A stretch of DNA of 64,000 bases from Natronolimnohabitans sp. A-GB9 (GTDB lineage: Archaea; Halobacteriota; Halobacteria; Halobacteriales; Natrialbaceae), in NCBI RefSeq assembly GCF_030848565.1, contig NZ_JAVDDV010000006.1:62001-126000 (forward strand), in the 5' to 3' direction. Shown here piece after piece: positions 9,687-19,514 of this stretch. The position numbers were made by a program, and so were the translations under genes. Numbering within the stretch: the first letter of the stretch is position 1; every line of letters starts with the position of its first letter. The notes under the pieces were generated by a model, which worked only from the letters and a program-made list of their open reading frames with translations, did no database searches and had not been told where the DNA came from.

Positions 9687-10035
9687 TTCGCCATGACGGT
9701 ATCGGCTCTCTTGGCTTCGACTCATCGGGTGAGCCGTACCAACTCGGTCGAGTCGGATGCGGTCTGTTGGCTGGGAGCCAACCCCGACGTCACACGTAGC
9801 AGGCCGCGACGGAGGGCAGCGCGATCAGTGTGCCAGAACGTGTTCACGCGACTCGAGCGAACTCTCGCAGAAACGTCCAGTTGCTCGTGTCTCGAACGAC
9901 CGGGACGACGCCCTCGATAACCGATGGCACACACCTGCGAGCACTGCGGCGAGACGTTGGGACCCTGTTTCCACGCCTAACGGACAGTGTATCCGCAACG
10001 AACGTTTATCTGTGATCCCGGACCCAACTGCTTCG
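9687..10035. other. Gene-poor stretch with an 18-codon zinc-finger fragment
   Basis: No credible full gene is visible. At 9924-9980 an ATG-to-TAA frame encodes 18 residues with CEHC followed by C and H. It looks like the first half of a CxxC zinc-finger microprotein cut short by a stop codon. The rest of the stretch shows only basic, low-quality open frames. Confidence 0.45.
9924..9980 (+). pseudogene. Possible truncated zinc-finger microprotein
   Basis: The 18-codon frame reads MAHTCEHCGETLGPCFHA and stops. The CxxCGE start is typical of haloarchaeal zinc-finger microproteins, but no second metal-binding knuckle of the usual form follows, so this is more likely a remnant than a working gene. 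It lies about 55 bases before the ERCC4-type nuclease gene. Confidence 0.35.
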
Positions 10036-10554
10036 ATGGCAGGGACAAACGAGCCGACCGCAGTTCCAACGACGATCCTGCGAGACACGCGCGAACAACG
10101 TCCGTGGACCTTCGAGGAGTATCCGGTCGAGACACGCGACGTAACGCTTTCGACCGGAGACTACGCCGTGCCAGCACACTGTACTCACGATCCGGAAACG
10201 GACACGTATTACCCACAGTTCGCCATCGAGCGCAAGTCCGGACCTGACTTTCTCACGGCACTCACCTGGGAACGAGAGCGATTCAAACGTGAACTACAGC
10301 GGGCGGCGAAGTGGACGCGGCCCCTCCCGGTCGTTGTGGAGATGTCGTGGGAGACGTTGCTTCGGAATCGCGGATGTATGGCGCGACGAGACGTTCATCC
10401 AAATCAAATCGTCGGGACCGTCACGACGTGGGCCGACCACTACAACGTGGCGTTCCATTTTACCGACACTCGTCGACGAGCACAACTGTGTGCGTTTCTC
10501 CTCCAGGTTCGTCACAGTCTGCTCCAACGGCTTGACGAGCTCACTCAACGATAG
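10036..10554 (+). CDS. ERCC4-domain nuclease (XPF/MUS81 type), stand-alone
   Basis: A 172-residue protein consisting almost only of an ERCC4 nuclease domain. The signature is clear: TILRDTREQRPW, then STGDYAVPA, then FAIERKSGPDFLTAL, giving the catalytic Asp and the ERK triad. Full-length Hef/XPF proteins add a helicase or tandem HhH domain; neither is present here. It may process branched DNA or act as a resolvase in a mobile-element setting. It sits just outside the tRNA-Phe-integrated element. The ATG at 10036 is preferred because upstream in-frame sequence is basic and not conserved in character. Confidence 0.85.
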   Translation: MAGTNEPTAVPTTILRDTREQRPWTFEEYPVETRDVTLSTGDYAVPAHCTHDPETDTYYPQFAIERKSGPDFLTALTWERERFKRELQRAAKWTRPLPVVVEMSWETLLRNRGCMARRDVHPNQIVGTVTTWADHYNVAFHFTDTRRRAQLCAFLLQVRHSLLQRLDELTQR

Positions 10555-10591
10555 TATCCGCCCCGCTCGGCGGATTGTCTCGGAAAACGTA

Positions 10592-10744
10592 TGCCGCCTC
10601 CCGGATTGTGAACTACGCCCGGGAACCTGCTCGCATCGCTCCCAGAACCTCGGTCTAGTTCAAATCCGCACGGATAGATTTCGCTCGCTCACGGATTGTT
10701 CGCGAGAGAAATGCCGCCTCCCGGATTTGAACCGGGGACAGCTC
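10592..10744 (-). repeat. tRNA-Phe 3'-end duplication unit
   Basis: Two copies of the tRNA-Phe 3' end lie here: a degenerate one near 10592-10613 (GCCGCCTCCCGGATTGTGAAC) and an exact one at 10711-10744. Between them at 10678-10712 is the hairpin ATTTCGCTCGC...GCGAGAGAAAT with GGATTGTT in the loop. The same hairpin follows tRNA-Val. Confidence 0.85.
10711..10744. repeat. Left attachment site of the integrated element
   Basis: A 34-bp exact copy of the tRNA-Phe 3' part (starts ATGCCGCCTCCCGGATTTGA, ends GGGGACAGCTC). The other copy is 19440-19473 inside the intact tRNA-Phe gene. The recombinase gene begins 60 bases to the right. Confidence 0.92.
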
Positions 10745-10804
10745 ATAGAAATAAATGGGCTGAGCCACTCACTCCGTCGCTCATGGGCGCTTCGGAGAAC
10801 GCCA

Positions 10805-11833
10805 ATGACGAAGAACGAACTCGAACCCATCTCGCCTATTGAGGCGAAGGAGATGTACCTCGACGCGAGGAAGCAAGAAGTATCGCAAAGCACTCTCGAC
10901 GGCTATCACTATCGGCTCAAGCACTTCATCCGCTGGTGCAAGGAAGTCGAGGGAATCGAGAACATGAATACCCTCTCCGGTCGGGACCTGCAGAGATACA
11001 AGACGTGGCGGAGGGACGACGGCGATCTGAAGCCAATCAGCCTTGAGGGACAACTCGACGCCCTACGGATCTTCATCCGCTGGTGCGGGTCCATCGACGC
11101 AGTCGAGCAGGACCTTCACGAGAAGTTCGAGGCGCTAATGCCGAAACTCAGCAAGAACGACGAGCAGAGCGAAGCGATCCTCGACGGCGAAGAGGCGGAA
11201 ACTCTACTCGAATATCAACGTCGCTTCGAGTACGCCTGTCGCGCTCACGTCATCACGGAGATTCTATGGCATACTGGCGTCCGACTCGGGGCACTGCACT
11301 CGCTGGACGTTGAGGACTTCGACGAGGAGCATGAACGACTCGAATTTACTCACCGACCTGACGAGGAGACTCCCCTCAAGAACGGACAAGAGGGAGAGCG
11401 TATGATCGCCCTCAGCGCCGAGGTTTGCCGAGTCATCGAGGACTGGCGGGACCATCATCGCCATGACGTAGAGGACGAGTATGGCCGTGAGCCACTTCTC
11501 ACGAGTCGGAACGGGCGCATGAATCGGGCGAGCATTCGAGACGCGATCTATCGGGTCACTCGTCCCTGCTACTACGCCGATGAATGCCCGAAGGGACGCG
11601 ATCCTGACGAGTGCGAAGCTGGACGATACCCGCACTACTCGAAGTGCCCGGAGAACGTCTCGCCTCACGCCATCCGTCGAGGGTCGATCACTCACTTCCT
11701 GACCGAAGACGTGCCTGAGAAGGTCGTCTCGGATCGCATGAACGTTGGTCAGGACGTACTCGATAAGCACTACGACAAGAGAGACGAATCGGTGAAGGTT
11801 GAGCAAAGGCGCGACTACATCAACGGAATCTAA
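10805..11833 (+). CDS. Tyrosine recombinase/integrase
   Basis: A 342-residue site-specific recombinase. The N-terminal SAM-like core-binding domain (about residues 10-95) is followed by the catalytic domain with Arg160 (GVRLGALHSL), His288-x-x-Arg291 (SPHAIRRGS) and the nucleophile Tyr323 (DKHYDK). Four cysteines (255, 261, 270, 281) between the Arg and His boxes may bind zinc, as in many haloarchaeal integrases. It probably integrates the element at the tRNA-Phe 3' end, since the attachment repeat lies 60 bases upstream. The ATG at 10805 is preferred; the open frame extends upstream through the tRNA duplication and is not coding there. Confidence 0.92.
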   Translation: MTKNELEPISPIEAKEMYLDARKQEVSQSTLDGYHYRLKHFIRWCKEVEGIENMNTLSGRDLQRYKTWRRDDGDLKPISLEGQLDALRIFIRWCGSIDAVEQDLHEKFEALMPKLSKNDEQSEAILDGEEAETLLEYQRRFEYACRAHVITEILWHTGVRLGALHSLDVEDFDEEHERLEFTHRPDEETPLKNGQEGERMIALSAEVCRVIEDWRDHHRHDVEDEYGREPLLTSRNGRMNRASIRDAIYRVTRPCYYADECPKGRDPDECEAGRYPHYSKCPENVSPHAIRRGSITHFLTEDVPEKVVSDRMNVGQDVLDKHYDKRDESVKVEQRRDYINGI

Positions 11834-11906
11834 TCCAACTTCTCGGCATTTCTACTTTCACTTCGGCGGCGTGACCCTTTTAATGGCATAAGGTCAACAC
11901 ACCGTC

Positions 11907-12815
11907 ATGGAGAATATCATTTATCTCGATGAAGACGCCGTCAACGAGGAACTCATCACACGTCACGGCGGCCAGCTCGAAGAGACAATCGAGCGAGTCA
12001 ACCGAGATGTGAGCCTTGGCGGTGAAGCCGAGGGGCAGGCAGGCGAACCGACCGGACTATTTGCTCGTCTCAAGGGTGCAATCTCTGCAAATTATGAGAG
12101 AGGGAAGGAAGAGGAGTTTGTCTATGACCTGACTGACGAAGTAGCGAAGTTTGCGCTTCTGCTGGAGGTCCTCGACGCATCTGGTGCGACAACGATCGAC
12201 AATCAGTTTACCACAGAAGATCGAAGCGGGCTTGCGTCCGATTCACCGATCATGATTACTGCCCCACTGACTCGCATTCCTATTGGCGAAATTAAAGATA
12301 GAGTTGATATTGGTGATGAGGTAGAACTCATGAGTGATGCTCTTGATGATTTCGCGAAGGCTGGTATCGGTGATACAACTGAAATAGAGGAGGCGAAAGA
12401 CAGTATCGAAGATCTGAGTTATGCTACCAGTGGAATGCGAAAAATGTTCAAATCACTCTCTGATGATGACGACATCTATCGGACCAATACAACTTCGGAA
12501 ATAGACTTTGTTATGGGATTGACTGATGGGAATTTCAGAAACCCTCCGAGAGATTTCCCGAGCAGAACCAAGCAGTACGCTCTCATAGGCAAAATAATGA
12601 CAAAGGTTGAACAAGGCGATGATGTTCCATTGATCAACTTCGCAGAACTCGCAGAAATGAACGCAGATAATCCAAGAAATCAGAAGACTGCGGAGATGAA
12701 GATGAAAGGGAAAGTAGCGGACATGGCAAACGATATTCTCAAAAGGGACGTTAACATCTCTGAATTTGAATTATCATATCCTGATGTCCAGATACGCCCT
12801 CTGGCCATCTATTGA
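11907..12815 (+). CDS. Element-encoded protein, weakly DUF6414-like, 302 aa
   Basis: A 302-residue acidic protein beginning MENIIYLDEDAVNEELI, which resembles the start of DUF6414 proteins of bacteria and archaea. The rest contains a Gly-rich stretch near residues 35-60 and a central region with MITAPLTRIPIGEIKD. Its base composition is clearly richer in A and T than that of host genes, indicating recent acquisition. DUF6414 proteins have no known biochemical function, to my knowledge, and the family assignment is tentative. It lies 70 bases after the recombinase gene in the same direction. Confidence 0.7.
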   Translation: MENIIYLDEDAVNEELITRHGGQLEETIERVNRDVSLGGEAEGQAGEPTGLFARLKGAISANYERGKEEEFVYDLTDEVAKFALLLEVLDASGATTIDNQFTTEDRSGLASDSPIMITAPLTRIPIGEIKDRVDIGDEVELMSDALDDFAKAGIGDTTEIEEAKDSIEDLSYATSGMRKMFKSLSDDDDIYRTNTTSEIDFVMGLTDGNFRNPPRDFPSRTKQYALIGKIMTKVEQGDDVPLINFAELAEMNADNPRNQKTAEMKMKGKVADMANDILKRDVNISEFELSYPDVQIRPLAIY

Positions 12816-13111
12816 TCGCTATTTCTTCTTTTTCTCACGGCTCTCTACCTTGCTCTCAGCGAGCTCACCGATTAGCAAGCGATTCCTATTGATCGACTCA
12901 CAGACTGGCATGAGCGGCATTCTACTGAGTCTCACTGCGAAAGAGACGATTCGAGCAGACTCAGTGCTCTAACTCGACGCCCTCAGCCGATTCTACACCC
13001 CTTAGTCGTCTCCGGTCAGGTGGCCGTCGAAGAGACTTACCGCCGAAACTCGACTGAAAACCACAAGACGGGACCGCTCCCTGTTCATGTCCCATTGACG
13101 TGAGGCGGTCG
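12816..13111. other. Convergent intergenic region inside the element
   Basis: Nothing recognisable. Open frames here lack good starts and acidic composition. The stretch TTTCTTCTTTTTCTC just after the 12815 stop is pyrimidine-rich and could end transcription. Confidence 0.4.
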
Positions 13112-13768
13112 CTATTGGCCGCCTTCGATGAACCCACGCCATTGTTCGAGCGCGTCGGCCTTCTGCGACTCAGGATCGTCGAGGACGCCGAGCCGCTGGA
13201 GGTCCTGCATGATGGACTTGTCGTACTGACGTATTTCGCTCAGGAGAGCCGCCTTCTCCTCATAGGACGAGTGTTCGGTCGAGATCGTCTGGACCAGCCC
13301 GGAGACGTTCTCGACGTAGGAAGACGCCTTCGAGACGATATGCAGTTTGATGGCGACTCGACGGGCCATCACTCGATCCATGTAGTCGACCTTGCCGGAC
13401 CTCGCTCGAATCCGGTCTTCAATCGTCGCCGAGACATCCTGAACGAACTCCTTCCCTCCCTCATCGAGTGACTGATGATAGTGGTACGGGTCGGCGTTCA
13501 GGGCGTGCTTCTGTGCGTTCTGGTTATGCTCGGGAGCGCCAGCGCCCTCAATCGACCCACCGTGAAGCCGACAGCGGCCCTCCCCGACGTGGTCGGTTCC
13601 CCAACCTGCTCGGAGCGAGCAGTAGCCGCTGAACACGGACTCGCCGTCCTCGTTTCTCTCGGTGGATCTCGAGTTGCAGTACTGGTCGGGGTCGATCTTC
13701 GGGACCTCTTCGAGCGTTTCTCCGATGAGCTGTTCCTCTTCGACTGGACGGTTCTCGTTACGACTCAT
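13112..13768 (-). CDS. Small-terminase-like Cys/His protein
   Basis: A 218-residue protein. After an acidic leader it has a cysteine/histidine segment (residues about 32-70: C, C, then GRCRLHGG) followed by GAPEHNQNAQKHALNADPYHY. This HGG...GAP.xN.NA.KH pattern is typical of haloviral and proviral proteins annotated as small terminase-like or HTH/zinc phage proteins. The C-terminal half is helical. It is last in a leftward block of element genes. If it is a packaging protein, a large terminase is missing, so a DNA-binding role in the element is equally possible. Confidence 0.65.
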   Translation of the reverse strand: MSRNENRPVEEEQLIGETLEEVPKIDPDQYCNSRSTERNEDGESVFSGYCSLRAGWGTDHVGEGRCRLHGGSIEGAGAPEHNQNAQKHALNADPYHYHQSLDEGGKEFVQDVSATIEDRIRARSGKVDYMDRVMARRVAIKLHIVSKASSYVENVSGLVQTISTEHSSYEEKAALLSEIRQYDKSIMQDLQRLGVLDDPESQKADALEQWRGFIEGGQ

Positions 13769-13866
13769 GGGTATTGATTTCTATATCGACGGTGGGGCGC
13801 ACAGACTGGCAGGTTCGCCGGGGAAACTGCGACTGATTGACTGGGCATATTCGACTCTCTCATGGA

Positions 13867-14364
13867 CTAACGAACGACCATCTTCACGAACCCGTAGAGT
13901 ATCGCTCCTGCTCCTGCGATCATTAGCCCGATACCGAGGGGGATGGTGACGAGCAGAAACGAAAGGACCGTAGCGAGGAACAGACCAACGCCGAACAGGA
14001 CTGCACCAAGCACCGGGGCGCTCATCCCTTTCAGGAACGGCTCCGACTTGCCTTCCTCGACGATGGCGTCCAAGTCCTCGACTCGTTTCCACTGATGGGG
14101 GTGCATCGAGACTCCGACCGCTCGCTCATCACCCTCGACGCACTCGAAGGGCTGAGTGAGAAGGCCGTTCGTCTGCTCCCATCGAGCACCACACTTCTCG
14201 CAGTCGATCTCGATACTCGTCAGGACTGGCTTCACTCGCCAGAAGTTATCGACGCTCAGACTCTCCTCCTCGCAAATCGGGCAACCGCCGAACTGCTGAT
14301 TGGCGTCGTACATGTCAAGGACTCTAAGGTCAGGAACTTGTACCTTGTGCGTTGTTACCACCAA
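13867..14364 (-). CDS. Zinc-ribbon membrane protein of the element
   Basis: A 165-residue protein with two cysteine pairs (CPIC near residue 28, CEKC near residue 55) forming a probable zinc ribbon, and two C-terminal hydrophobic segments (about residues 112-135 and 139-161) forming a hairpin in the membrane. No enzyme motif is seen. Its start overlaps the end of the winged-helix gene by ten bases, so they are probably translated together. A membrane sensor or virion membrane protein are both conceivable; I cannot choose. Confidence 0.65.
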   Translation of the reverse strand: MVVTTHKVQVPDLRVLDMYDANQQFGGCPICEEESLSVDNFWRVKPVLTSIEIDCEKCGARWEQTNGLLTQPFECVEGDERAVGVSMHPHQWKRVEDLDAIVEEGKSEPFLKGMSAPVLGAVLFGVGLFLATVLSFLLVTIPLGIGLMIAGAGAILYGFVKMVVR

Positions 14365-14579
14365 ACGCGAGTATCGCCGACGGACTTCCCATTGACGAAC
14401 TGCGAGGCGTTGAGGCGTTCGACTACTTCCTTCTCGTCGAGGTCGAACTCCTCTGCGACTTCAGCAGTCGAGACGACGGGATTCCCCCAGTTTCCCGTCT
14501 CGCGGGTGACGAACTCCTCGACTTCATCGCCGTACTCTTTCGCTCGCAGGTACGCGAGACGGCGGTTGTTTTCGATCAT
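14355..14579 (-). CDS. Winged-helix-like microprotein, 74 aa
   Basis: A 74-residue protein. Residues about 37-60 (STAEVAEEFDLDEKEVVERLN) read as a helix-turn-helix with a following wing (VNGKSVGDTRVWW). It is probably a DNA-binding regulator of the element. It begins three bases after the coiled-coil gene stop and overlaps the Zn-ribbon membrane gene, so the block 15104-13112 is likely one transcript. Confidence 0.65.
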   Translation of the reverse strand: MIENNRRLAYLRAKEYGDEVEEFVTRETGNWGNPVVSTAEVAEEFDLDEKEVVERLNASQFVNGKSVGDTRVWW

Positions 14580-14582
14580 CCG

Positions 14583-15104
14583 TCAGTCCTCGCGGTTCCG
14601 GCGTCCAGCGACGGGAATCTCGGACTCGTCTACGCCGCCGTCATCCGTGTTCATGTACTCGTAGTTCGGGATAGCGCCACTCATCTGGTTCTCTCGACGC
14701 TGATTCGCCCGTTCCTGCCGACGACGACTGTCCTCACTCCGCATCTGATTGATTTTCTCGTTGAACGCCATCTGGTCCTCGACTGACGGGCCGTGGTTTG
14801 CTCGCTCGACGGTGATTGTATCAGGGTTTTCGACATCACCGCCTTCGACGGGGACTTCCTCGGTGTACGTATCGGGCTTCTTGCGGCGAATCTCAACTGT
14901 CTCGTCCCCGTTGGTTCGAGAACGGCCAGCGGAAGGGATCTCGACGTTGACCGTCTCTTCGCCCTCCTCGCCATCGGACTCGACTGAACCACCGTGCGCC
15001 TCGACGTATGCCTCGGCCAGCTCGATGATCTGCTGGTCGAGTTCCTTCATCTTCGCTCTCATCTCGGCCCGCAACTCGGCGACCTCTTGATTGCTTGCTC
15101 CCAT
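14583..15104 (-). CDS. Coiled-coil, charged element protein
   Basis: With the ATG at 15104 (MGASNQEVAELRAEM) the product is 173 residues; an upstream start would add 17 hydrophobic residues and looks less likely. Residues about 5-35 form an amphipathic coiled coil. The remainder is charged and low in hydrophobic residues, with many Arg/Gln/Asn near the C-terminus, suggesting a disordered tail. No family is recognised. It is the first gene of the leftward block. Confidence 0.6.
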   Translation of the reverse strand: MGASNQEVAELRAEMRAKMKELDQQIIELAEAYVEAHGGSVESDGEEGEETVNVEIPSAGRSRTNGDETVEIRRKKPDTYTEEVPVEGGDVENPDTITVERANHGPSVEDQMAFNEKINQMRSEDSRRRQERANQRRENQMSGAIPNYEYMNTDDGGVDESEIPVAGRRNRED

Positions 15105-15185
15105 GTCAACAAGGAAGAGGGTCAGGTCTATCAGGTTACCGGGAAAATGGCCCAATTCGGGACCAACAGACTCTCTTGCGTTGGT

Positions 15186-15359
15186 TCAGGGCATTATCTC
15201 GGTACTCATCTCTAATATCGAACTCGTAACCTCGCTCTTCGGAAGCCTACGGCCATGCTTCTGCGAGTAGTGCTTCCTCATCCCGCTTGATTCGAGGAAT
15301 ACTCTGCCGCACTCTGGACACTCGAAGACGGCTGGCCGCCCTTTCGACGCCGAACTCAT
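15186..15359 (-). CDS. C2H2 zinc-finger microprotein, 57 aa
   Basis: A short ORF (ATG at 15359, TGA at 15186). It contains one classical C2H2 finger: Cys14, Cys17, His30 and His35 (CPEC...HYSQKH, spacing Cx2Cx12Hx4H), followed by a basic then hydrophobic tail. Single-finger C2H2 proteins are common in haloarchaeal viruses and plasmids and presumably bind DNA. It faces the rightward RHH gene across a 260-base gap, so it may be part of the element's control region. Confidence 0.72.
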   Translation of the reverse strand: MSSASKGRPAVFECPECGRVFLESSGMRKHYSQKHGRRLPKSEVTSSILEMSTEIMP

Positions 15360-15619
15360 GCCTTCTCGCTTCGACCTCTCGACCCATAAGGAGCGGCGTG
15401 ATCGACTGAGCGGCCATAGACGCGGCTCTCAGCGAGTTCTTGCCTTCTCCGATGATTCCTATTGCTCGACTTGTCAGTCTTCTCTCACTCGCGTCTCGCA
15501 GACCTCACTGGCAAAGAGGGGAGATAGGGAATCGAGAGCGATCAAATCGAGTGTTATAGCGTCTCACACTCAAAAAATGTCCAAACAAACCCTATGTAGT
15601 CGGAATGCTAAATCATAGC
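15360..15619. promoter_or_regulatory. Divergent control region of the element
   Basis: Lies between the leftward C2H2 gene and the rightward RHH gene. The right half is AT-rich (CACTCAAAAAATGTCC, TGCTAAATCATAGCATG). GCTAAATCATAGC just before the RHH start is a small inverted repeat and may be an operator. A replication origin could also lie here, but no iteron array is obvious. Confidence 0.4.
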
Positions 15620-15766
15620 ATGGGGAATCTCAAGTCCCGGTACACCACCATCAACGTGTACCCCGAAGACCGAGACATCGCTCAGGAAGCAAAGGCCGAC
15701 GGAGAATCGTGGTCTGATTTCATCCGCCGCGCTGGAGAAGAACTCGAACCCGAGACTGACGACTAA
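15620..15766 (+). CDS. Ribbon-helix-helix-like microprotein, 48 aa
   Basis: The ATG at 15620 to TAA at 15766 encodes 48 residues: a strand (YTTINVYPEDRDIAQEA) followed by two helices (ESWSDFIRRAGEEL), a pattern typical of RHH/Arc-MetJ regulators. It is the first rightward gene after the control region, three bases before the next ORF, and probably regulates element genes or copy number. Confidence 0.68.
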   Translation: MGNLKSRYTTINVYPEDRDIAQEAKADGESWSDFIRRAGEELEPETDD

Positions 15767-15769
15767 CGA

Positions 15770-15952
15770 ATGAATCATCGAACAAAGAACGGGGGCCGGT
15801 CCCAACCTGAACCCCCGAACGACCAAGCAATCATGGATTCTACGGTCCAGACGCTCGAAGGATTACCCCTCGAACATGGGCTTCGATCAAGGCCTGAGGA
15901 TCGTGCCTCAGACGCAGATGGGAACCCGGAGGATTCCAAGTTCCATGAGTAA
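15770..15952 (+). CDS. Polar microprotein of unknown function, 60 aa
   Basis: A 60-residue hydrophilic, probably disordered protein without recognisable motif. It starts three bases after the RHH gene stop and its end overlaps the ATPase gene start (ATGAGTAA), which is the main reason to believe it is translated. Confidence 0.5.
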   Translation: MNHRTKNGGRSQPEPPNDQAIMDSTVQTLEGLPLEHGLRSRPEDRASDADGNPEDSKFHE

Positions 15953-17747
15953 ATTAGCAAGTCAACCCAATAACGCTACCGGGATTTCAGGCAGTCTCGA
16001 CGCTGTTTACGAGCGAACAGAGGATTGTCTGGAGCGGGCGATAAAGTCATTCGACTCGAAGATCGTTGAAGGCCCACCTGGTGGCGGAAAGACAACCACT
16101 GCGTTCAAAATCGCCAGCAGATCGAGTGAGGCGTTCGTATATCTCACTAAACGGGAGGACCTGTATGAACAGGGCGAGAGATTGAGTGACGAGTTCGATC
16201 TCTCGCACGAGATCATCCCGAGTCCGCATCGAGACTGCCCTTCCTTCGATGAGGATAGTCCACAGTTCGACCCTGAGGCAAAGTCTCTCTACGATTTTGG
16301 GGTCAACGCCGCTCGTATCCATGCTGAACTCGACCTCGACTGCTCTCCGAACTGCGAGTATATGCAGAAGTGGGAGACGTTCGACGACGATCCCGCCGAT
16401 ATCATCATCGGTCACTACAAACATGCATACCTCTCGTCGCTGATTGAGGACCGAATCGTCATTATCGATGAGTTCCCCGGCGGAGCCTTCGAGCGAGAGT
16501 TCAATAACGCGGATGCAATGATCTCACGCTTCCTGCGAAGCGTAGACCGAATCCCTTTCGATGATTTTCTGGATCTGATCGAGAACCGTGATGACCTTGA
16601 TCGAGTCAAGGCGGTCTATGCGTGGTTCCGTCGCAACGGAGTTGGGACCGACGACAGGACGATCATTGAAGCCAACGAGAACGACCGATACCATACACTC
16701 GCACCCTTCCTAACGTACACCGTCTTGAATACGATCAAGAACGGCAACGGATTCGAGGTTCCTTGGTTCAACCTGACCGGAATCGAAGCAGGGTTCGAGG
16801 AGTCATCGCCGTTTTCTGGGCTCGAAACAGAACGGCTGGCGGCTGTGGATCGGGAACAGCAATCAATTCACGTTTTGACCCCGCCAGATCTGAGCGGTGC
16901 TCGCGGTGTTGTCGGACTCGATGGAACGCCTACTCCGATGATGTGGGAGTTGGCTACCGGCGAGGACTTCGACCACTTGAGTGTGCTGGACCGAGAGAAA
17001 GAGATGAGCGCCTACGTTCGTGATTTTCTCGGCGTTACAGTCAAGCAGACGAACGAACACCTGAAACCATATCACGGCGGGCATATCACCGAGAACCGCG
17101 ATGAGGCGATTCTGTACGGTGTCGAAGTCAAGGAAGGACAGAAACCTGCGCTAATTGCACCTGAGAAGGCCCTCGAAGCATACAGAGAGGCGGGTATTCT
17201 CGATCGAACGGGATTGTCGATGAACTACGCTCAAGTCCTCAGTTCAAATGACTTCAAAGGAGAACCAGTAGGGGTTATACACGGTGCTCCTCATCCCGGC
17301 AACCAGCCCGTCAAGAAATGGGCTGCCTACTTTGGCATACCTGTCGATGGGGAAGGAGAGGGGATGAACAAGACCTACGGAGAGTTCGGGGATGAGATCT
17401 ACCGTCACTTCGTTCATAATCAGGTGCTTCAGGCGATTCTTCGATTCGGCCGAGGAGAGTCCGATGCTACGGTCTACGTGAATACGGCGGCGATCCCTGA
17501 CGATTCCATCGAAGTCGATTCGATGGCAAATCCAGAACTGTTTAACAGCCCGAATAAGCGCAAAATCGCGGACCACCTTCGAGACGCTGGTGCTGACGGC
17601 GCGACCAAGAAGGATCTCAAGAAGACTGCTGAAATCGAGTCGATGACGACAGTGGAGAACATCCTCTACGACTTCCGTGACAAGGGACTTGTTGAGGATG
17701 AAGTTGTCCCCGGACCATATCCGACGGTCTACAGGTGGTCACGATGA
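15945..17747 (+). CDS. P-loop ATPase/helicase-like protein with C-terminal winged helix
   Basis: A 600-residue protein, likely the element's main replication or maintenance ATPase. Walker A is GPPGGGKTT (residues 43-51). A DEAD-box-like motif II appears as RIVIIDEFPGG (about residue 170). Later motifs include VGLDGTPTP and QAILRFGRGESDATVYVNT, which look like helicase motifs III and VI. The last 60 residues (RKIADHLRDAG...VENILYDFRDKGLV) form a winged helix. The ATG at 15945 is preferred because it overlaps the previous stop; an earlier ATG at 15876 is possible. Confidence 0.75.
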   Translation: MSKLASQPNNATGISGSLDAVYERTEDCLERAIKSFDSKIVEGPPGGGKTTTAFKIASRSSEAFVYLTKREDLYEQGERLSDEFDLSHEIIPSPHRDCPSFDEDSPQFDPEAKSLYDFGVNAARIHAELDLDCSPNCEYMQKWETFDDDPADIIIGHYKHAYLSSLIEDRIVIIDEFPGGAFEREFNNADAMISRFLRSVDRIPFDDFLDLIENRDDLDRVKAVYAWFRRNGVGTDDRTIIEANENDRYHTLAPFLTYTVLNTIKNGNGFEVPWFNLTGIEAGFEESSPFSGLETERLAAVDREQQSIHVLTPPDLSGARGVVGLDGTPTPMMWELATGEDFDHLSVLDREKEMSAYVRDFLGVTVKQTNEHLKPYHGGHITENRDEAILYGVEVKEGQKPALIAPEKALEAYREAGILDRTGLSMNYAQVLSSNDFKGEPVGVIHGAPHPGNQPVKKWAAYFGIPVDGEGEGMNKTYGEFGDEIYRHFVHNQVLQAILRFGRGESDATVYVNTAAIPDDSIEVDSMANPELFNSPNKRKIADHLRDAGADGATKKDLKKTAEIESMTTVENILYDFRDKGLVEDEVVPGPYPTVYRWSR

Positions 17748-17835
17748 GAGAAAAGGGACCCAGAATCCCCATTAAGACCTATATGGGGAAATTGGGTGGC
17801 TTTCGTGAGGGGTCCTGTCATGGAGGGGCGACATC

Positions 17836-18654
17836 ATGAGTTCGACCGAGAGCCGCGACAAACTCGAACGGATTAGGAGTGCGAAGAGCGGTGAAGAGGA
17901 TACAGGTGACGGCCCTGAGATATTCACCTGTCCAGTCGAGGAATGCAGTCGAGTCGTAATCGACAATCCGGGGAATCTTCGGAACCATGTGAGGCAGGAA
18001 GTCGATGACGCTCATCGCGGGCTCAAACTCACTTCCTCCCTCGAACTCGTTGAGCGGTACAAGATCGAGAGTGATCTTCGGGAGCAGTACGTCGAGAAAG
18101 AGAAGAGTCAGCAGGAGATCGCCGACGAGTGGGGGTGTAGTCGGAGTACGATTCAGCGATGGATGAATCGACACGAGATTTCCCGTCGGAGCGGCATGGG
18201 AGGCGGCGCTAATCGGGTCGAGTATGCGTCCTTCTACACGGAAACGCACGAGAACGGCGGATATGAGAAGGTCGGAGCCTACGATCCCGAGAAGGACGGC
18301 ATGGTCTTCACGACGGTTCACCAGTTAGTTGCCATCGCTCAGGGGGAAGATCCCGAGAAGGTCTTCTCAGACGGGGAGTATCAGTCCCATCACCGTACTG
18401 GGATACCGTGGGATAACCGTCCGGAGAATGTGGAACTGCTGACGCGCGAGGAACATCAGCGTGCGCACCGGCTCAACGAGTGGACCGAGGAGGATGGTTT
18501 CCCGGTGCTGGTGACTCAGCGGGTACAGTCCGACGCCGAGTATCATGCTCAGTGGGGTCCGGGGATTCGAGAACCTGATTCAGATGAGCGCGAATCTGTC
18601 TATGAACTGGGCGATAGTTGGGGGCCAGGTGCGCCGATCAGTGAAGTCTCGTGA
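17836..18654 (+). CDS. HNH endonuclease with zinc-finger and HTH domains
   Basis: A 272-residue protein with three parts. An N-terminal Cys/His finger (C32, C37, H51, H60); a helix-turn-helix (SQQEIADEWGCSRSTIQRWMNRH, residues about 91-113); and an HNH nuclease core (HHRTGIPWDNRPENVELLTREEHQRAHR, about 185-212) of the HNH_3 type seen in homing endonucleases. It may act as a free-standing homing endonuclease or cut rival DNA. It is 88 bases after the ATPase gene, with the same orientation. Confidence 0.82.
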   Translation: MSSTESRDKLERIRSAKSGEEDTGDGPEIFTCPVEECSRVVIDNPGNLRNHVRQEVDDAHRGLKLTSSLELVERYKIESDLREQYVEKEKSQQEIADEWGCSRSTIQRWMNRHEISRRSGMGGGANRVEYASFYTETHENGGYEKVGAYDPEKDGMVFTTVHQLVAIAQGEDPEKVFSDGEYQSHHRTGIPWDNRPENVELLTREEHQRAHRLNEWTEEDGFPVLVTQRVQSDAEYHAQWGPGIREPDSDERESVYELGDSWGPGAPISEVS

Positions 18655-18785
18655 TTGCATCGCAGCACTCGATATTTGGCACCTGACTTAGCGAGGTAGT
18701 ATGAACTTCTCTTGAGTTTGTTTTCGCTATCGGCCGTTAGCGGAAACAGGTTCTTAATGCTGGTATGCCACGTGTCCTGTTATGC

Positions 18786-19106
18786 ATGGCAACCCATTGC
18801 AACTGGTGCGGCAAGGAAACCGAAGAGATCACACTCGAACTTTCAAACCTTGATGACCGTTGGGTTCGGATGGACCCTAAGGCATCAAGTGAAGGATGGC
18901 AAACTAACATCTGTTCGAATTGCAATAAGCGACTCTCTGGCAAGATGGCAGAGGTTCGACGCGCATTCGGTCTGAGTGAGCAGGGGACTGAGGAGGAACT
19001 CACACGACAGATGATCACCTTGATTGACATAGTAAACTCAGAGCCACCGGAACGCAACTGGGAAGAAACCTTCCCACGAAACCTCCCTCTTCATAGAACG
19101 GGCTGA
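18786..19106 (+). CDS. Zinc-binding protein of unknown function, 106 aa
   Basis: A 106-residue protein with CNWC near residue 5 and CSNC near residue 43, a probable zinc ribbon, followed by a charged helix (KMAEVRRAFGLSEQ) and a polar C-terminus. The ATG at 18786 (MATHCNWCG) is preferred to one seven codons upstream. No family is recognised. It is the last rightward gene of the element before the tRNA. Confidence 0.62.
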   Translation: MATHCNWCGKETEEITLELSNLDDRWVRMDPKASSEGWQTNICSNCNKRLSGKMAEVRRAFGLSEQGTEEELTRQMITLIDIVNSEPPERNWEETFPRNLPLHRTG

Positions 19107-19440
19107 GAGGCTCATTGAGGCGATTGGTTGGAAAGCAGACCTATCCCGCTACTCGCGAGACAGAAATTGCTCTCACGGCATTCTCGCGCGCCTCACGAGA
19201 TTCTGACCTTTGATCGAGGACGAAATCTCACTCGAACAGCGAATATGGCCGACTCAGGGTATCGAGTACGTCGAGAACGGGAGACGAGTAGTTACATATG
19301 GTCAGGGGGTCAAATGTGAGCGAAGCGCCTGAAGGCGTCGGGGCGCGAGTGGAACCATGGTCAAATCTAATCGGGAGATCAGCGGGAAAATCGCCGTAAG
19401 GCGTTGCCTGCGTGCGAATGAGAACCGAGTAGAATCGGGA
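19107..19440. other. Gene-free right end of the element
   Basis: About 330 bases with no credible gene. It contains several CTCACG/CGTGAG fragments but no clear repeat. Ends at the tRNA-Phe attachment core. Confidence 0.4.
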
Positions 19441-19473
19441 TGCCGCCTCCCGGATTTGAACCGGGGACAGCTC
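19440..19473. repeat. Right attachment site (within tRNA-Phe)
   Basis: Exact 34-bp match to 10711-10744, covering the T arm and acceptor 3' strand of tRNA-Phe. Confidence 0.92.
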
Positions 19474-19514
19474 GATCTTCAGTCGAGTGCTCTCCCAGTC
19501 TGAGCTAAGGCGGC
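19441..19514 (-). tRNA. tRNA-Phe (GAA)
   Basis: Acceptor GCCGCCT/AGGCGGC, D arm with AGCTCAGACTGGGAGAGC, anticodon stem CTCGA/TCGAG with loop CTGAAGA (anticodon GAA), and T loop TTCAAAT. The discriminator is A and CCA is not encoded. It is intact because the element restored the 3' half on integration. Confidence 0.95.

Follow-up and report, generated by a model that had tools for sequence, protein, structure and literature searches.

Integrated haloarchaeal elements with a terminase small subunit gene of their own as probable satellites of tailed viruses

An integrated element of 8.8 kb in the genome of Natronolimnohabitans sp. A-GB9 is probably an archaeal satellite of the type of the bacterial PICIs, which would excise, replicate itself and use its own terminase small subunit (TerS) to steer the large subunit (TerL) and the capsid of a helper virus onto its DNA. 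The element was analysed in a window of 64,000 nucleotides, the whole stretch of DNA under study, and is one member of a family newly recognised among integrated haloarchaeal elements, the terS elements. As far as sequence is concerned, the satellite model is based on the integration site, the module content, the absence of TerL, the conservation of the genes and the selection acting on them. A preliminary description had proposed either an undescribed integrative element or a satellite packaged by a helper virus; this is supported by the existence of the family, the identity of TerS and the absence of TerL, and we infer the packaging itself.

The element (8.76 kb) is bounded by exact 34-bp direct repeats at positions 10711-10744 and 19440-19473 of the window, where about 2e-13 such repeats would be expected by chance in 12 kb. 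The G+C content per kb was 47-59% inside the element versus about 58-67% outside. The perfect tRNA-Phe att repeats and the AT-richer genes claimed earlier were thus both found. A genome of the same genus (G098) has a single tRNA-Phe gene and a right flank 84% identical to that of the element, and lacks the second 34-bp copy, and is therefore taken as the empty site. Degenerate att-like copies were also seen beside tRNA-Phe in the window, where a third copy with 17 bp exact lies at 10591-10624 near the element, and in another locus (L146:13300-13696); these are perhaps scars of earlier integrations. A gene for an ERCC4-domain nuclease (9757-10554, Pfam 2e-13) lies just outside the left att site. 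The features of the element are as follows.

10711 to 10744, no strand: attL, a 34-bp copy of the 3' part of tRNA-Phe
10805 to 11833, plus strand: SNJ2-type tyrosine integrase, 342 aa (Pfam Phage_integrase, 3.4e-11)
11907 to 12815, plus strand: DUF6414/DolA-like protein, 302 aa, cargo (Pfam DUF6414, 6.7e-18; PADLOC DolA, 8e-5)
13112 to 13768, minus strand: TerS, 218 aa (phrog_9231, 4.5e-27; TerS of HGTV-1 and HATV-3; clade support 96/99)
13867 to 14364, minus strand: zinc-ribbon membrane protein, 165 aa, variable gene (CxxC pairs; hydrophobic C-terminal segments)
14355 to 14579, minus strand: small winged-helix-like protein (wHTH), core gene (family alignment)
14583 to 15104, minus strand: core gene g173, encoding a charged protein specific to the elements, with repeated IPVxG/TEEV motifs (family alignment)
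15186 to 15359, minus strand: microprotein with a C2H2 zinc finger, opening the terS operon (weak Pfam match; synteny)
15620 to 15766, plus strand: RHH-like microprotein, opening the divergent replication operon (weak Pfam match)
15945 to 17747, plus strand: replication protein, an XPD/DinG-like SF2 helicase ending in a winged helix (model, PDB matches, homologues in plasmids)
17836 to 18654, plus strand: zinc finger, HTH and HNH endonuclease protein (phrog_7545, 1.5e-32)
18789 to 19106, plus strand: CxxC protein, also in the locus L072 (43% identity)
19440 to 19473, no strand: attR, inside the intact tRNA-Phe gene (19441-19514, minus strand), of which it is the 3' part

The gene calls of the preliminary description agreed well with these assignments. 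The Cys-rich tyrosine recombinase has a Pfam Phage_integrase match (3e-11), the HNH endonuclease its phrog_7545 match, and the zinc-ribbon membrane protein is borne out by CxxC pairs and hydropathy; the zinc finger of the C2H2 microprotein is visible and its profile match weak, and the RHH call was likewise shared, again with a weak Pfam match. The P-loop helicase-like protein with a winged helix, of 600 aa, gave a confident fold model (pLDDT 80.6), and its best solved relatives in the PDB were XPD/DinG helicases (1e-9 to 7e-6). Its start is probably the ATG at 15945 and not 15876, and that of g173 (the ORF at 14583) probably the ATG ending at 15104, judging from the family alignment. The same helicase domain occurs inside longer proteins of haloarchaeal plasmids of 8.9-10.8 kb, and no relatives were found in phage records.

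The TerS protein matched its counterparts in the tailed viruses HGTV-1 and HATV-3; there, TerL and portal follow the terS gene one or a few positions downstream. The earlier reading of a small-terminase-like protein therefore stood as regards the profile and the homologues adjoining TerL in viruses, and the fold model, of modest quality (pLDDT 62), gave matches in the viral library to many proteins named as small terminases, but nothing significant was found in the PDB by sequence or by fold, with no match below 1e-3. The dN/dS values of terS (0.06-0.33) indicated purifying selection. In the control region between the divergent operons, no DNA motif or iterons shared by nine elements stood out above shuffled sequences, and promoter and terminator scans likewise gave no excess over shuffles.

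Twelve of 392 Halobacteriales genomes, spread over nine genera in six families, had relatives of this TerS with 49-66% identity, one of them as a truncated remnant; the genome collection yielded Halosimplex aquaticum, Salinadaptatus halalkaliphilus and Natronococcus sp. A-GB7 as further carriers. Integration across the family is at tRNA-Phe or tRNA-Tyr. In eight elements both att sites could be defined, giving sizes of 8.76 (window), 10.5, 12.5, 10.1, 10.0, 8.5, 16.9 and 8.2 kb, and L065, a ninth element of 3.7 kb, appears to be truncated. The related elements keep the core operon in the order C2H2, g173, wHTH and terS, so that the conserved synteny whose absence would have spoken against the preliminary description was found; this operon diverges from one with RHH, the replication gene and HNH/zinc finger, the N-terminal part of the HNH protein being a core module conserved in sister elements, and the integrase is located at one end. 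The replication gene is exchanged within the family, being the helicase in the window element, L021 and L071, and Prim-Pol or primase-like in L066, L067 and L069. The g173 gene was found in 10 of the 392 genomes, all of them carriers of terS elements (hypergeometric p about 3e-18), and the wHTH protein, a candidate excisionase or regulator, has strong relatives only in terS elements and in one further genome, G178. There a close homologue (L184:9008-9361) adjoins a DUF2213 gene, and since TerS and g173 are absent this locus was not counted as a family member. The element of Natrialba aegyptia has an identical 34-bp att site and an integrase 88% identical to that in the window, and across three host families TerS is 96-97% identical, which indicates recent movement between families.

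Outside the core, the elements carry variable and partly defence-like cargo. The DUF6414 protein of the window element, which sister elements lack, weakly matches DolA of the Dodola defence system and stands alone; it is possibly an antiviral gene. The element of G095 encodes a type IIG restriction-modification-like protein and a TATA-binding protein, of which the Natrialba element has near-identical copies; a TATA-binding protein gene adjoins a type IIG restriction-modification gene as cargo at L074:18178-18723 and in G042:C15 (L148:8308-8853). The Natrialba aegyptia element further carries, within the terS operon, a gene for a tape-measure protein of 913 aa (L068:11878-14619; phrog_28, 1.9e-58), with its nearest relative in the haloarchaeal siphovirus Hardycor1 (39% over part of it), which is a further sign of a tie to tailed viruses. 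A gene of 152 aa overlaps the tape-measure gene and may encode a tail-assembly chaperone.

The elements could also be regarded as integrative plasmids with the TerS operon as a defence module, in which TerS and g173 would disrupt packaging in tailed viruses that invade the host and the element itself would not be packaged. Such a plasmid would be consistent with the relatives of the helicase in small plasmids and with the defence-like genes, and also with a sibling without TerS (L026:6960-13227, 6.3 kb), which occupies the same tRNA-Phe, has an integrase of 69% identity and a homologous XPD-like helicase, and shows that the backbone of integrase and helicase is independent of TerS. In addition, the search of viral contigs yielded no particle-borne copies: no element DNA was found there and no relatives of the integrase or the wHTH protein, and for TerS only distant relatives of the virus type, most of them with TerL adjoining TerS. 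However, a vehicle is required for the recent transfer from one host family to another, terS is present in every intact sister with both its N-terminal and C-terminal regions conserved, and the tape-measure gene of one sister fits the use of particles better, so that we consider the plasmid explanation unlikely.

The integrase raises another alternative, an autonomous virus or vesicle-borne plasmid similar to pleolipoviruses, with a capsid or envelope protein that escaped recognition. The protein has the IntSNJ2 homology and the SAM-like and catalytic domains of the SNJ2-type family, for which a cut-off of 30% identity over 60% is used and which is restricted to Halobacteria (PMC8371274). It is 82-88% identical to the integrases of sister elements and 44-46% identical to those of the betapleolipoviruses SNJ2, HHPV4 and HRPV9, the size of the element is similar to that of pleolipoviruses, and it encodes one membrane protein. 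These viruses, on the other hand, encode spike and membrane proteins but lack TerS, which would have no role in them. The block of spike and ATPase genes of the Pleolipoviridae is absent from the element, where only the integrase is related, the 165-aa membrane protein is not kept by sister elements, and a capsid would require more and larger genes than those conserved, all of which makes this alternative very improbable.

The preferred reading as a satellite draws on a TerS that stands without TerL. A TerL profile search across the 4.3-Mb host genome gave no match, and searching the complete genomes of G000, G018, G088, G191 and G198 with PHROG TerL detected none. In several other carriers (G148, G092 and G095) a separate TerL lies elsewhere in the genome, and these possibly hold resident helpers. 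With a profile from six haloarchaeal virus and provirus sequences, no TerL was found in the loci of the close TerS group, whereas in TerL-linked loci its reading frame adjoins TerS or is close by, and the more distant TerS relatives with an adjoining TerL belong to tailed viruses or proviruses. One virus-type TerS (L079:9635-10291, G413) has no TerL within about 10 kb and a TerL about 49 kb away. In the TerS tree the 14 TerL-less sequences are split from the 22 TerL-linked ones by one branch (support 96/99, present in 96% of bootstrap trees). The portals of HGTV-1 and HATV-3 are absent from the element, and profile searches of its genes gave no match to capsid families; of the marks of a tailed provirus (Caudoviricetes), namely TerL, portal and the HK97 major capsid protein, it has none. 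The absence of a pleolipovirus spike, a tailed-virus capsid and a large terminase, as originally claimed, was upheld by profile searches, and no unassigned gene matched capsid or spike families, a match that would have contradicted that claim. A decayed tailed provirus that retained terS by chance would explain why terS, HNH and the tape-measure gene of one member are tailed-virus genes, but it is hardly credible, since independent decay would scatter and mix TerL-less with TerL-linked TerS on the tree, whereas the TerL-less proteins group in a single old clade, share an operon and evolve under purifying selection, and none of the virus loci examined contains g173. Having TerS and no motor, capsid or tail, the elements most likely ride in the particles of other viruses.

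By its sequence, the element integrates into the 3' end of tRNA-Phe by its SNJ2-type integrase, and its self-replication protein is transcribed away from the second operon (C2H2, g173, wHTH and terS). In the satellite model, infection by a tailed virus, or the induction of one, would lift the repression that the small regulators (zinc-finger, RHH and wHTH) exert, upon which, by analogy with PICIs, the element would excise, replicate to concatemers or circles and make its own TerS. This protein would recruit the TerL of the helper to a recognition site on the element, and the DNA would be loaded into helper capsids; the HNH protein may help in cutting the ends, and g173 may interfere with the helper or adapt it. 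The cargo (DolA-like, restriction enzymes) would defend the host from competing viruses. Neither a helper nor a pac or cos site was identified by sequence, and since a TerL provirus is absent from the host genome, the helper would come from outside.

In bacterial satellites, terS counts among the genes that redirect packaging (PMC10803314). As in a PICI-type element, the one in the window is integrated and att-bounded, falls within about 7-20 kb and has its own integrase, its own replication module, judged by homology, and its own terS without TerL or capsid. Like PICIs and SaPIs, the family comprises integrated islands of 8-17 kb with att sites, an integrase, divergent operons, their own replication gene (Prim-Pol in several haloarchaeal members), TerS without TerL and antiviral cargo. 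In contrast to them, it has an archaeal host, an SNJ2-type integrase, a TerS of tailed haloarchaeal viruses and g173, the replication gene may be an XPD/DinG-like helicase, and helper packaging is predicted from the genes. Profile searches of the element for regulators of the AlpA/Stl type, typical of PICIs, gave no match, and C2H2, RHH and wHTH proteins are present instead. The likeness to PICIs concerns the way of working, and descent from them is not claimed. The PICMI satellites of Vibrionaceae are also minimal islands of integrase, regulator and primase using tailed phages, but have no terS (PMC10803314). Among archaeal systems, the fusellovirus satellites pSSVx and pSSVi have plasmid-type replication proteins, but spindle-shaped helpers and no terminase (PMC4158269, PMC11389934), and NitKor-E1 of Thaumarchaeota is an integrated element with terminase genes and no capsid, but has TerS and TerL together and is a single case interpreted as a relic (PMC6563490). 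The haloarchaeal plasmids NZ_CP100453 and NZ_CP095486 (8.9-10.8 kb) have the homologous helicase domain, but as part of a protein of more than 1000 aa, and lack TerS.

In the biology of bacterial phages, satellites with packaging redirection play a major part. In the open-access literature no report of a tailed-virus satellite with packaging redirection was found for archaea, and the only archaeal satellites found there were those of fuselloviruses. According to a survey of integrated archaeal elements, no non-viral element had been seen to contain the terminase complex (PMC6563490). We cautiously favour the view that archaea evolved packaging piracy of the PICI type independently, as a haloarchaea-wide family made of archaeal parts, with an SNJ2-type integrase, replicons of plasmid or Prim-Pol type, a TerS captured once from a lineage of tailed haloarchaeal viruses, a g173 of its own and at least one member in which a tape-measure protein would remodel the tail of the helper. 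Independent assembly, and not descent from bacterial PICIs, is suggested because the parts are archaeal, the SNJ2-type integrases being confined to Halobacteria. If confirmed, packaging piracy would have arisen in both domains, the movement of small haloarchaeal elements between families would be explained, and Natrialba aegyptia, Halostella pelagica and Natronococcus jeotgali, among other culturable hosts, would offer a testable system.
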